A DNA stretch of 64,000 nt from Paragemmobacter amnigenus (lineage in GTDB: Bacteria; Pseudomonadota; Alphaproteobacteria; Rhodobacterales; Rhodobacteraceae): the NCBI RefSeq assembly GCF_009908265.2, contig NZ_JAAATX020000005.1, positions 248,001-312,000 of the forward strand. Reading direction: 5' to 3'. This document shows, piece after piece, positions 814 to 54,282 of this stretch. Under the pieces are notes generated by a model that did not search any database, was not told the DNA's origin, and was given only the letters and a program-made list of their open reading frames with translations. How positions within the stretch are numbered: the stretch's first letter is position 1; each line of letters opens with the position of its first letter. The position numbers and the translations under genes are program-made.

Positions 814-3800
814 TCACTCGGCCGGAACCTTCTGTGCCTCGTCCGAGAGCGGATGGGGCAGGCGGCTCACCATCTCCTTCGGGCAGACCTGCAGGAAGTT
901 GCGCTTCTCTGCCTCCCAGTCACCCAGAATCCGCGCCCCGATCCGCGAGCCCGTCTCGGCCACATGCGCCTCGATCAGACCCTTGAGCTGTGCTTCCCAA
1001 TGGGGATGCCCGATGCCGCAGGTCAGGATCGACTCGAGGTTCATGAACTCTTCCGCCACTCCGTCGGGGTCATAGACATAGGCCATGCCGCCCGTCATGC
1101 CCGCGCCGAAGTTCGCGCCGATCCGGCCAAGGATCACCGCGACGCCGCCGGTCATGTATTCGCAGCCGTTCGACCCGCAGCCTTCGACCACCACCTTGGC
1201 GCCCGAGTTCCGCACCGCAAAGCGTTCGCCCGCGCGGCCCGAGGCGTAAAGGAAGCCGTCGGTCGCCCCGTAAAGCACGGTGTTGCCGATGATCGTGTTC
1301 TCTTCCGCCTTGAGCGGCGAGGACATCAGCGGACGCACGGTGATCGTGCCGCCCGACAGGCCCTTGCCCACATAGTCATTGGCGTCGCCCTGCACCTCGA
1401 TCTTCAGACCGCGGACAGAGAAGGCGCCCAGCGACTGCCCGCAGGAGCCGGTCAGTTTCACCGTCAGGTGGTCGGGTTGCAGGCTGTTCCGCATCCCGAA
1501 TTTCTTGACGATGTGCGACGAGGCCCGCGTCCCGATGGTCCGCAGCGTGTTCCGCACGGCATAGGACAGCTGCATCTTTTCGCCATCTTCAAAGAAGCGG
1601 TGGCCGTCCTTGATGATTTCGGCATCCAGCGTATCCGGCACGGCATTGCGCGGCTTTGACCGGTCGTAGGTGATCTTGGACGACCCGTCGACCGTGATCA
1701 GCAGCGGGTTCAGGTCCAGATCGTCCAGATGCGCGGACCCGCGGCTGACCTGCGTCAGCAGATCGGCACGTCCGATGATCTCGTCCAGACTGCGCGCGCC
1801 GATGGAGGCGAGGATTTCCCGCACTTCCTGCGCGTAGAAGGTGATCAGGTTCACCACCTTGTCCGCATTGCCCGTGAACTTCTGGCGCAGTGCCTCGTTC
1901 TGGGTGCAGACGCCGACGGGGCAGGTGTTGGACTGGCACTGGCGGACCATGATGCAGCCCATCGCGATCAGGGCGGCGGTGCCGATGCCGTATTCCTCGG
2001 CCCCCATCATCGCGGCCATGACGATGTCGCGGCCCGTACGCAACCCGCCATCGGTCCGCAGCGTCACCCGCTCGCGCAGGTTGTTCATCGCCAGAACCTG
2101 ATGCGCCTCGGTCAGGCCCATTTCCCACGGGAGCCCAGCGTATTTGATCGAGGTCGCGGGCGATGCCCCCGTGCCGCCATTGTGGCCCGAGATCAGGATG
2201 ACATCGGCCTTGGCCTTGGCCACGCCCGCCGCGATTGTGCCCACGCCCGAGGCCGACACCAGCTTCACCGTGACCTTGGCGCGCGGGTTGATCTGTTTCA
2301 GGTCATAGATCAGCTGCGCGAGGTCTTCGATGGAATAGATGTCATGATGCGGCGGGGGCGAGATCAGCGTGACGCCCGGCGTCGAATGGCGCAGCCGCGC
2401 GATCAGCGCCGTCACCTTCATCCCCGGAAGCTGGCCACCTTCGCCGGGCTTGGCACCTTGGGCCACCTTGATTTCCAGCTCCTCGCAGGCGTTCAGGTAT
2501 TCGGCGGTGACGCCGAAGCGGCCCGACGCCACCTGCTTGATCTTGGCCGACGGGTTGTCGCCGTTGGGTTCGGGGGTGAAATGCGCCGGATCCTCGCCGC
2601 CTTCGCCCGAGTCGGATTTCGCGCCGATGCGGTTCATGGCGACGTTCAGGGTCTTGTGCGCCTCGGGGCTGAGCGCACCCAGCGACATGCCGGGGGTGAC
2701 GAAGCGTTTGCGGATCGAGGTGATGGATTCGACTTCCTCGATCGGGACGGGTTTGCCCAGCGGCTTGATGTCCAGAAGGTCGCGGATGTGGATGGGCGGG
2801 TTCGCCCGCATCGCGGCGGAATACTGCTTCCACAGGTCATAGCTGGCGCGGTCGCAGGCCGATTGCAGCATGTGCATCGTCTGTGCTTCCCATGCGTGCT
2901 TTTCGCCCGAACGGCGGGCCTTGTAGAAGCCGCCGATGGGCAGGACATCCGTCCCGCCCAGCCAACCCTTGGCGTGGACTTCCTCCAGCTTCTGTTCGAT
3001 GCCGTGCAGGCCGATGCCGGAGATGCGCGAATGCATGCCGGGGAAGTATTCGGCCACCATGGCGCGGGACAGGCCCACCGCTTCGAAGTTCAGGCCGCCG
3101 CGGTAGGAGGAGATGACCGAAATGCCCATCTTGGACATGATCTTCAACAGCCCCGCGTCGATGGCGTCGCGGTAGCGGCGCATCGCGTCGGTCAAGGTGC
3201 CGTCCAGCAGGCCGCGGCTGATGCGGTCGGCGATTGAGTCCTGTGCCAGATAGGCGTTCACCGTGGTCGCGCCGCAGCCGATGAGGACGGCGAAGTAATG
3301 CGGGTCGATGCATTCCGCCGAACGGACGTTGATGGAGCAGAAGGTCCGCAGGCCCTTGCGCGTCAGCCAGCTATGCACGGCAGAGGTGGCAAGGATCATG
3401 GGCATCGGGACCCTGTCCGGCCCCTGATGCTGATCCGTCAGCACAAGGTGGCCCGCGCCGGAGCGGACGGCATCCTCGGCCTCGGCCCGGATGCGTTCCA
3501 GCCCGGCGCGCAGGTCGTCCAGACCCGGGGTGGCGGGGAAGGTGCAGTCGATGAAGGCCACCTGATCGCCGAACTGTTTGACCATCACGTCAAACTCGGC
3601 ATTGGCGATGAAGGGGCTTTCCAGAACGAGGATTTCGGTCTGGCTGCTGTTTTCATCCAGCACGTTCCGCAGGTTGCCGAAGCGGGTCTTGAGCGACATG
3701 ACCCGACCCTCGCGCAAGCTGTCGATGGGTGGGTTCGTGACCTGGCTGAAGTTCTGGCGGAAGAAGTGGCTCAGCGGGCGATAGACCTTGGACAGCACCG

Positions 3801-38164: not shown

Positions 38165-38194
38165 AAAGGGCCGGGCATCGCTGCCCGGCCCTTT
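38165..38194. terminator. Bidirectional terminator between small ORF and infB
   Basis: AAAGGGCCGGGCA / TGCCCGGCCCTTT, a 13-bp perfect stem with TCGC loop. On the minus strand four Ts follow, so it serves infB; on the plus strand it also closes the 38005 gene. Confidence 0.85.
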
Positions 38195-49532: not shown

Positions 49533-49563
49533 AAAGGCCCCTGCCATCATGGCAGGGGCCTTT
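49533..49563 (-). terminator. Terminator after petC
   Basis: AAAGGCCCCTGCC / GGCAGGGGCCTTT with a 5-base loop; on the minus strand the stem is followed by a U-rich end. It closes the petABC operon. Confidence 0.85.
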
Positions 49564-52346: not shown

Positions 52347-52677
52347 GAGACCTTCTCCCTTCCAAGGGCGCGGTTTTCCCGCGACCCATAAATGGTGGGG
52401 CCGCGGTCACCCGCAGCCTTGCCGGGCGGCTTTTAGACAAGGCGCGCCGGATCGTCCAGCGGACAAACGGGCGCAGACCCGCCCGGAAGCCCCGGAAAAT
52501 CGCGGTCTGTGGCCGTTCGGGCGCGCCGGCATGGAAAGAAGGGTGGAACAGCCCGTCCCGCCTGCAAGTCCCTGCGACAAGTCGGCGCGCAGCCCGCCCC
52601 GATCGGCCCCCGCGACGGCAGGGTGCCAGAATCATGCAAATCAGGTGAATCCTTTGCCCGCGCCCGGATGCCCGCGC
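52347..52677. other. 331-base gap upstream of petABC
   Basis: No gene I can support. On the petA side there must be a promoter, but I see no convincing -35/-10 pair. Short open frames on the minus strand here have no ribosome-binding site or recognisable sequence. Composition is slightly less biased than coding sequence, with a small AT island near 52387. Confidence 0.5.
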
Positions 52678-53295
52678 TCAGACGGGGCGGGTGGCCTGCA
52701 TCGACGGGCGCGCCGCGAAACCCGCATACCACGCCGCCAGATGGGGCCGCCCCGTCCGCCATCCCCGCGCGTCGTGGCGGAAATCCAGATAGCCCAGCGC
52801 ACAGCCCACCGCGATCTGGCCCGCATCCAGCGGCCCCTCCAGATGCGCCATCCACCGCGTCTCCAGCGCATCCAGCGCGCGCTCGACCTTGGCCCACTGC
52901 CCCTCGACCCATGGGGCATAGCGCAGCTCCTCTGGCCGGATGCGCACCTCGTAGATCATCAGCAGCGCCGCATCCAGGATGCCGTCCCCCGTCGCCTCGA
53001 CCGTCAGCGTATCCCAAAGCCGCGCGCCCTGCGGGTAAAGTCCCGCACCGGCCCCGTCCCCGGCGCGCGCGTCCAGAAACTGGCAGATGACGCGGCTGTC
53101 ATAGAGCGCGGGCCCGTCCGGCCGCTCCAGCGCGGGCACCTTGCCCAGCGGGTTCGCCTCCAGCGGCGCCGTGCCGGGATCGACCGGATTGCCCGACCCG
53201 CTGACCAGTTCCACATCGGCAAACTGCCCTGTCTCGCGCAAAAGGACCGTCACCTTGCGGACATAGGGAGAGGTGGGGGAGTAGTAGAGGCGCAT
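52678..53295 (-). CDS. Glutathione S-transferase family protein
   Basis: 205 residues. Thioredoxin-like N-terminal domain (MRLYYSPTSPYVRKVTVLLRETG, NPLGKVPALERPDGPALYDSRVICQFLD) with the conserved cis-Pro and DSR glutathione-binding motif, followed by the helical C-terminal domain (LEGPLDAGQIAVGCALGYLDFR). The ATG at 53295 has GGAGA upstream. The hairpin cluster at 53353-53471 lies directly upstream. Confidence 0.92.
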   Translation of the reverse strand: MRLYYSPTSPYVRKVTVLLRETGQFADVELVSGSGNPVDPGTAPLEANPLGKVPALERPDGPALYDSRVICQFLDARAGDGAGAGLYPQGARLWDTLTVEATGDGILDAALLMIYEVRIRPEELRYAPWVEGQWAKVERALDALETRWMAHLEGPLDAGQIAVGCALGYLDFRHDARGWRTGRPHLAAWYAGFAARPSMQATRPV

Positions 53296-53352
53296 GTCGA
53301 ATGTCTCCTGCCGGTTGCCCGCGACCCTAGGCCCTGCCAGCCCGCCCGAAAA

Positions 53353-53471
53353 GCGGTTTGTGACGCACAAACCGCGCCGGAATTTGACGCAAATTCCGGC
53401 CCCGCCCCGTCCCGCGGCTGCCGGGCGATTTCTGCGTCAGAAATCGCCGCGAAGTTTGCGTCAAACTTCGC
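53353..53471. repeat. Cluster of four hairpins with a conserved TGACGCA core
   Basis: Four perfect palindromes in 119 bases. Hairpin 1: arms GCGGTTTGT/ACAAACCGC, loop GACGC (53353-53375). Hairpin 2: arms GCCGGAATTT/AAATTCCGGC, loop GACGC (53376-53400). Hairpin 3: arms GGCGATTTCT/AGAAATCGCC, loop GCGTC (53424-53448). Hairpin 4: arms GCGAAGTTT/AAACTTCGC, loop GCGTC (53449-53471). Loops 3 and 4 are the reverse complement of loops 1 and 2, so on one strand or the other each reads T-GACGC-A. Arms differ in sequence but stay fully paired. Hairpins 1-2 and 3-4 abut without spacer, the pairs 23 bases apart in opposite orientation. No T-tract, and no gene in 53296-53506. Confidence 0.9.
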
Positions 53472-53506
53472 CTGCGCCCGAAACACGGGCCGCACCGCAG
53501 CCCCCC

Positions 53507-54112
53507 TCAGCCCAGCGCCCGCATCATCCCCGCGATCTCTGCCGCCAGCCCGCCCTGCGCCTCCAGCGCCGCGATCACGCCCGCCCGCGCCTCGGGCGTC
53601 TTGTTCTGGCCCAGCTTCCACGTCCCCTGCACGTCCGTCACCTCAAGGCGAAAGGGCAGGATGCCCCGCATCATCCGCTCCATCACGCCCGCGCCCATCT
53701 TGTGCTTGGTCCAAGGCCGCTTGCCCGCGATCCGCCCCTCGAACTCCGCCGACAGCGCATCCACCTGCGGCTCCAACTCCGCGCCCGCCATCGGCGACAG
53801 CACCCCCCGCAGATGCACCGCCACGTAATTCCATGTCGGCACCTGATCCGGCACCCCGTACCAGTCGGGCGAGACATAGGCATCCGGCCCCTGCACCGCC
53901 AGCAGCGCCGGCGCGGGAAGCCCCGCCCGCGCAATCGCGTTGGACCGCGCCAGATGTACCTCCACCACCCGCGCACCCGCCATCACAAAGGGCACATGCG
54001 CCGCGACCGGCCCGCCCTCGCCGTTGATGCACAGCATCCCGAACCCCCGCGCCGCGGCAAAGCGCAGGTTCGCGTCCTCGGGCGTGTCGCGGAAGGCGGG
54101 ATTGGGATGCAT
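53507..54112 (-). CDS. PaiB-like FMN-binding protein
   Basis: 201 residues, the FMN-binding split-barrel fold of Bacillus PaiB: MHPNPAFRDTP, RGFGMLCINGEGGPVAAHVPFV, NAIARAGLPAPALLAVQGPDAYVSPDWY, VPTWNYVAVHLRG and KMGAGVMERMMRGILPF are family blocks. Annotated in relatives as an FMN-binding negative transcriptional regulator, but no DNA-binding domain is visible and the role here is unknown. Same strand as the GST, separated by the hairpin cluster. Confidence 0.9.
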   Translation of the reverse strand: MHPNPAFRDTPEDANLRFAAARGFGMLCINGEGGPVAAHVPFVMAGARVVEVHLARSNAIARAGLPAPALLAVQGPDAYVSPDWYGVPDQVPTWNYVAVHLRGVLSPMAGAELEPQVDALSAEFEGRIAGKRPWTKHKMGAGVMERMMRGILPFRLEVTDVQGTWKLGQNKTPEARAGVIAALEAQGGLAAEIAGMMRALG

Positions 54113-54282
54113 GACGGGCGCTCCAAACGATTCGCGGCAACAGGGTTAACTGACCGCCACCGTTCGCTGCGTGCTGACAGGGTGCGGCACAACCCGCGGC
54201 ACAGGTTACGGTACACCCCGTTCCGCCCATATCGCCAGATTTACAAGGCGTTCCGGCCACTTGCCCCCGCGCCAAAGCAAAA

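Follow-up and report, generated by a model that had tools for sequence, protein, structure and literature searches.

A family of inverted tandem-hairpin elements at gene 3' ends in Paragemmobacter and other Rhodobacteraceae

The window element and its neighbours

The window, by which is meant the whole 64,000-nt stretch of Paragemmobacter amnigenus DNA that was analysed, carries four tandem hairpins between two genes of the minus strand, as the initial annotation had it. On one side lies a paiB-like gene (53507..54112, minus strand; PF04299 FMN_bind_2), which reads towards the hairpins and whose stop codon is 35 nt from hairpin R2. On the other side is a GST gene (52678..53295, minus strand; PF13409, PF13417, PF13410), with its start 57 nt beyond hairpin F1. 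All four hairpins belong to one 119-bp element in the order F, F, spacer, R, R; the tandem pair with core TGACGCA is the F,F half and the tandem pair with core TGCGTCA the R,R half. F1 (53353..53375, plus strand; arms GCGGTTTG/CAAACCGC, core TGACGCA) falls in the covariance model match G000:C5:301353-301399 on the plus strand, and its core is 24 bp from that of F2 (53376..53400, plus strand; arms GCCGGAATT/AATTCCGGC, core TGACGCA). A spacer of 23 nt (53401..53423), a part that diverges between orthologous elements, separates F2 from R1 (53424..53448, minus strand; arms GGCGATTTC/GAAATCGCC, core TGCGTCA). R1 falls in the model match G000:C5:301425-301471 on the minus strand and is followed at a core-to-core distance of 24 bp by R2 (53449..53471, minus strand; arms GCGAAGTT/AACTTCGC, core TGCGTCA). 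A hairpin scan of the window thus recovered both the four perfect hairpins with their cores and the 23-base spacer between the facing pairs that had been described at the outset.

The arms measure 8–9 bp outside the core, or 9–10 bp if the closing T-A pair is counted. Among the perfect hairpins of the window (arms of at least 8 bp, loop of 3–8 nt), only these four have the TGACGCA core; the 7-mer itself occurs 14 times on the two strands (8 + 6), with 4 of the 14 copies inside the hairpins. Two terminator-like sites were called in 52600-54200, both at 53582-53599 inside the paiB-like gene and none at the hairpins, in line with the earlier remark that T-tracts are absent. Folding z-scores of the element are −5.1 as minus-strand RNA and −8.3 as plus-strand DNA. 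A comparison of 52600-54200 with 4227 Rfam models gave no match up to E 5, and a known RNA family was rejected on this ground. Elsewhere in the window, long perfect hairpins with AAA/TTT ends at 38165-38194 and 49533-49563 resemble ordinary two-sided terminators.

Distribution, architecture and loops of the family

The window hairpins are one copy of a chromosomal element family of ~110 bp with the layout F-F-spacer-R-R, abundant in the genus and thinner in other Rhodobacteraceae. The pattern TTTGACGCAAA occurs 30 times in the P. amnigenus genome against once for the reversed pattern, and its loci there share the identical layout with different arms. A covariance model built on 39 dimers (model R1) gave 117 matches in this genome counting both strands, many of them one site matched on two strands; about 40 elements were taken from these matches, with two weak ones (C6:83727 and C4:234046) left out of the loci used, and both halves were matched in 38 of 40. 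In a set of 61 genomes, the model matched 23: all 19 of the same genus (1 to 99 matches each from at most 101 scored candidates) and 4 of 18 others in the family, and none of 24 from the rest of the class. Most members of the genus have dozens of matches; one genome assigned to it, G004 (1.5 Mb, 96% complete), has one. A scan of 394 family genomes gave 34 with matches; 32 of these belong to other genera and have 1 to 14 matches each (at most 15 candidates scored). An exact-hairpin scan found the hairpin, among the matches listed, in Tabrizicola sp. TH137, Gemmobacter straminiformis, Rhodobacter ruber, R. kunshanensis and Rhodobacteraceae MAGs.

Distinct tandem perfect hairpins numbered 251 in 1.13 Mb of loci and 0 in 40 dinucleotide-shuffled loci; most of these loci were fetched for holding elements, the shuffles are of loci rather than of whole genomes, and loci L089-L192 were among the matches listed for CGGAATTTGACGCAAATTCCG and hence selected for one hairpin each. 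The palindromes are therefore above chance frequency by both controls and the copies are not unique to this genome, two checks that had been proposed along with the initial annotation. Plasmids, phages and viral contigs gave no match, either to an exact 19-mer in one scan or in blastn searches with the 141-bp window copy, which could miss divergent copies; carriage by such replicons was accordingly set aside. All clusters found in G007 (52) and G002 (39) lie on contig C1, which is no more than suggestive of restriction to the chromosome (chance 0.0007–0.0024 for G007 and 0.03–0.08 for G002, with rounded genome sizes). Clustering along the chromosome was rejected, as positions are uniform (KS p 0.83 for G007 and 0.93 for G002). 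In the literature, judged by title and abstract opening of the best matches, no paper deals with these elements.

The arrangement of the hairpins is strongly directional. Among 144 clusters of three or more hairpins, each admitted at 6 or more of 7 pairs, 103 have the order FFRR and none the order RRFF. A 24-bp period holds in both halves of 100 of the 103 FFRR elements, and the spacer runs from 2 to 123 nt, commonly 15–30. At the level of model matches, 44 of the 52 clusters of G007 are plus-minus and none minus-plus, and in G002 the corresponding numbers are 21 of 39 and 1, with 13 single matches. The loop is TGACGCA in 392 hairpins, TGGCGCA in 69, TGACACA in 32 and TGCACGCA in 22, with few others. 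Towards the loop, the stem reads approximately C G R W W Y Y. Of 412 hairpins, 407 have C-G as stem pair 2 and 407 have G-C as stem pair 3; the middle pairs are variable yet paired. With the loop and C-G base in common, 318 hairpins have 73 different 8-nt 5' arms.

Other genera, at loci mostly chosen with the same model, show hairpins in which the closing pair is altered on both sides (CGACGCG, CGGCGCG) and others with different loops (TTTGAAA/TTTCAAA, TGCCAAA); a stop codon abuts 19 of 37 of their tandem groups, the halves of one element being counted apart. A 400-kb stretch of G021, taken blind, holds two such tandem groups. Further tandem types were seen in passing. L195 at about 3195-3240 and L149 from 2468 have perfect tandem hairpins with TTCGAA centres, those of L195 just upstream of a gene start and not behind a stop codon, and L206 has tandem hairpins with CTGGCG centres from 1251, a class counted three times among the distinct tandem groups.

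Gene ends, pairing of the stems and copy dynamics

In P. amnigenus, 15 of 40 elements lie between convergent genes, 21 between same-strand genes and 4 between divergent genes. Across the genus, 93 elements divide into 36, 47 and 10 in the same order, counted with genes from our own codon-usage gene caller; the remaining 10 of the 103 FFRR elements had short flanks or uncalled genes and were left out. The convergent share exceeds that of gene pairs in the window (36/93 against 7/59, p 0.0004). A stop codon falls within −12 to +15 nt of a hairpin in 73 of the 93 elements, at both ends in 15, and a gene that reads into an element meets F hairpins first. At 15 gene ends, the stop codon sits at −11 and is the TGA of the loop; at 12 others, at −1, it shares the first base of the hairpin. 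The window copy is looser than the family, with the paiB-like stop as far away as noted above. Ten proteins encoded in the window and at element-bearing loci are of unrelated families. The initial annotation had offered attenuation of GST expression as one option, and a GST-specific attenuator finds no support because across the family the elements are associated with gene 3' ends and adjoin unrelated genes; against that, the window element is both upstream of the GST gene and behind the paiB-like gene.

Such a location would also suit an element that works in RNA at the 3' end, as tandem hairpins directly behind the stop codon, and this is the main rival to the DNA boundary proposed below, though less likely than not. 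The hairpins could act by blocking 3' exonucleases after Rho-dependent termination, by aiding termination in both directions with no U-tract, or by stalling ribosomes at termination. Ribosome stalling has been reported for REPs that lie within 15 nt of a stop codon (PMC12306157). The closeness of stop codons, the convergent excess and the strong folding of the RNA all speak for this account; RNA-level elements show the same gene-end and convergent location, which to that extent counts against a boundary in the DNA. Against it, the stems are followed by no U-tract, T being raised only over the three bases next to the elements (0.30, 0.41 and 0.35 against about 0.15, partly from stop codons), and none is present at the window hairpins, so identity with U-tract terminators was rejected. 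Nor are U-tract hairpins depleted beside the elements, being present at 19 of 100 gene ends with an element and 48 of 306 without (p 0.44), which argues against both the RNA account and the elements as terminator substitutes. A plain barrier, moreover, has no need of a constant asymmetric loop.

The pairing of the stems bears on the same question. In alignment A1, the dimers of which were chosen for pairing (at least 6 of 8 pairs), 98.0% of cells are paired and the covariation score is 0.584 against 0.178 in shuffles. Partner hairpins that were not chosen for pairing, four loci of other genera among them, have 2438 of 2544 cells paired (GT 16, AC 15, other 75), and most of the unpaired cells fall on the second hairpin, at its outermost pair. 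A comparison of orthologous sites gave 738 identical stem pairs, 60 changed on both sides and 14 unpaired in one partner, as counted in 29 of 55 comparisons (13 of 22 sites); the other 26 were dropped because recognition of all four hairpins failed in one partner. Spacer identity between orthologous elements is 0.28–0.86. Of the 60 double changes, 25 exchange A-T for T-A, the most frequent kind and one with no wobble intermediate. The covarying arms and the conservation of the elements in relatives bear out the original proposal that hairpin shape and loop sequence are kept while the arms differ.

Mismatches in the 103 elements, under the same admission of hairpins at 6 or more of 7 pairs, are G-T 12, A-C 10 and other 8 in 2884 cells, and in the sense strand of 63 U-tract hairpins from the same loci they are G-T 17, A-C 3 and other 13 in 567 cells. 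Wobble thus does occur in the U-tract hairpins, at a G-T rate of 3.0% against 0.4% in the elements (p 3e-7). The G-T to A-C ratio differs between the two (p 0.047), as it does between U-tract hairpins and the unselected partners (p 0.018). In same-strand contexts, where the sense RNA is defined, G-U is seen 3 times and A-C 10 times (p 0.0007); these p values are optimistic, being based on few mismatches in partly related sequences. The proximal half in such contexts has 695 of 700 cells paired, and the distal half is equally well paired at 689 of 700, in favour of the boundary in DNA. The equal rarity of G-T and A-C points to a constraint on DNA or on both strands and weighs against the RNA account. 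This pattern would be expected from constraint on DNA, from constraint on both transcripts or from template-directed repair of the arms, and would not be expected from selection on sense RNA alone. Copying from arm to arm in replication could keep the pairing with no function at the DNA level, which counts against a reading as DNA. Between the protein-bound cruciform and the RNA hairpin that had been left side by side as options, the mismatch test leans towards DNA or both strands, short of proof.

Pairing between the F and R loops (GACGC with GCGUC), so that the whole element folds as one structure, is very improbable. The inverted design does make the loops of the two halves complementary, and the outer pair F1-R2 shares loop variants 5 times against 2.2 expected (p 0.052); over the same 103 elements, however, F2-R1 gives 2 against 1.6 (p 0.51), F1-R1 0 against 2.0 and F2-R2 1 against 1.8. 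Kissing loops were rejected on this absence of clear loop covariation, with the outer pair borderline.

REPINs with RAYT transposases offer a further comparison. The elements might be a selfish or formerly mobile repeat of this kind, which we regard as unlikely; a putative enzyme, or one since lost, would have spread them, they would be tolerated chiefly at positions behind genes, and their pairing would be maintained by template switching and by exchange among copies. Copy number, inversion and location are all REP-like; L091, at a contig start of Gemmobacter straminiformis, shows local amplification of F hairpins at about 110-bp spacing, and two-hairpin forms at L162 and L122 resemble deletions between palindromes. 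Rare arms are shared in 18 of 523 within-genome pairs against 52 of 2982 between-genome pairs (permutation p 0.025; 85 of 103 elements), and for identical 47-bp dimers, where the numbers are 3 of 523 and 5 of 2982 (p 0.10), the comparison tells against spread. So do the arms, conserved at old orthologous sites where spacers have diverged, and the lack of matches among the plasmid, phage and viral sequences searched. No Y1 transposase (PF01797) passes the cut-off in the 19 genus genomes, with one weak sub-threshold hit in G008, and 5 of 14 control genomes match. RAYT mobilisation was rejected on this ground, and for the same reason the RAYT-driven form of a mobile-element seeding site, another of the initial options, is unsupported; an enzyme may since have been lost from the genus.

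Individual sites show some turnover. Where L225 has its element (3001-3108), the orthologous site L140 has from 3148 another tandem-hairpin type, two AT-rich hairpins with loops TTTGCAA and TCCGCA, as if types had been exchanged. At the site of the element of L210, no such hairpin was found in L170. Two distant elements of P. amnigenus, L203 and L204, have the F1 arm GCGGTTTG in common, and the orthologous copies seen differ, which suggests exchange between copies.

Proposed working and likeness to known repeats

Judged by sequence comparison, this is a conserved, shape-constrained, two-sided gene-end element, as indicated by its architecture, orientation, position at gene 3' ends, conservation between orthologs with double arm changes and lack of wobble tolerance. 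The likeliest working, to which a probability of roughly 40% is given, is that of a REP/BIME-like two-sided gene-end boundary read as DNA via the loop. Each hairpin would serve as one recognition unit: a putative trans-acting factor would read its asymmetric loop (GRCGC), and its stem would need to be self-complementary either as DNA (single-stranded or as an extruded hairpin) or in transcripts from both strands. Because its two tandem pairs are inverted, the element would present the same face to polymerase from either side and could therefore form a topological or transcriptional boundary that works in both directions behind genes, as has been proposed for REP/BIME elements. Stable mRNA hairpins directly behind the stop codon would be a by-product, and the boundary in DNA and the role at the RNA 3' end may both hold. 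Extrusion is favoured by negative supercoiling, which is not expected at convergent ends, and this counts against the boundary in DNA. So do the raised T next to the elements, the 10 of 93 elements called between divergent genes and, in G002, the one minus-plus cluster and the 13 single matches.

To our knowledge, REP repeats have no agreed function. A broader and rather improbable proposal is that a Rhodobacteraceae system marks gene 3' ends with DNA hairpins in loop dialects that differ by genus (GACGC, GGCGC, TTGAA-like), where a putative undiscovered hairpin-DNA-reading protein would recognise loop sequence and stem shape rather than stem sequence and some genes would use the loop TGA as stop. 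Stems that covary around a fixed loop separate shape from sequence, which allows clean variants to be used in the search for a reader. Whether such repeats act as DNA or as RNA can be tested simply by comparing the numbers of G-T and A-C mismatches, and because the elements are conserved at orthologous gene ends, deletion tests are direct.

REPs are defined as extragenic, palindromic, short and multicopy, and the definition in PMC12306157 also has their copies highly similar with a common consensus. The family here comprises ~40 elements of 23-nt hairpins that are intergenic with some overlap of stop codons. The CGTC-tagged REPs are described by Di Nocera et al. (2013, PMC3733652) as mostly alphaproteobacterial, with 8–9 bp stems and 4–5 nt loops, mainly as inverted dimers near gene 3' ends and without a dedicated transposase, and the present elements resemble that description in all these respects. 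In the same account, a CGTC REP has an unpaired CGTC tag at one end, A-T first stem pairs and a short tail that fits CCA, whereas here GCGTC/GACGC is the loop, the stems start with C-G and G-C, each half has two tandem hairpins, and CCA follows 2 of the 206 outer ends and 2 of the 206 spacer-side ends. The likeness to GTAG REPs and BIMEs with RAYT (PMC3733652, PMC2817692), and to REPINs, lies in the inverted arrangement at gene ends. Many REPs are reported within 20 bp of gene 3' ends, and the termini of GTAG REPs often supply a TAG stop (PMC3733652), as the loop TGA does here. Unlike those repeats as described, the elements have arms that vary between copies around a constant loop and occur in a genus with no Y1 transposase over the cut-off; GTAG starts the hairpin at 8 of 205 element ends and 3 of 80 in P. 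amnigenus, where those looked at are part of a TAG stop codon. With intrinsic terminators they share a place downstream of genes, and they differ in having no U-tract, no wobble tolerance and a constant asymmetric loop. The elements thus appear to be of the same broad kind as REPs but without the defining CGTC and GTAG tags, and with what seems, beside REP/BIME repeats, a novel design of constant loops and covarying arms.
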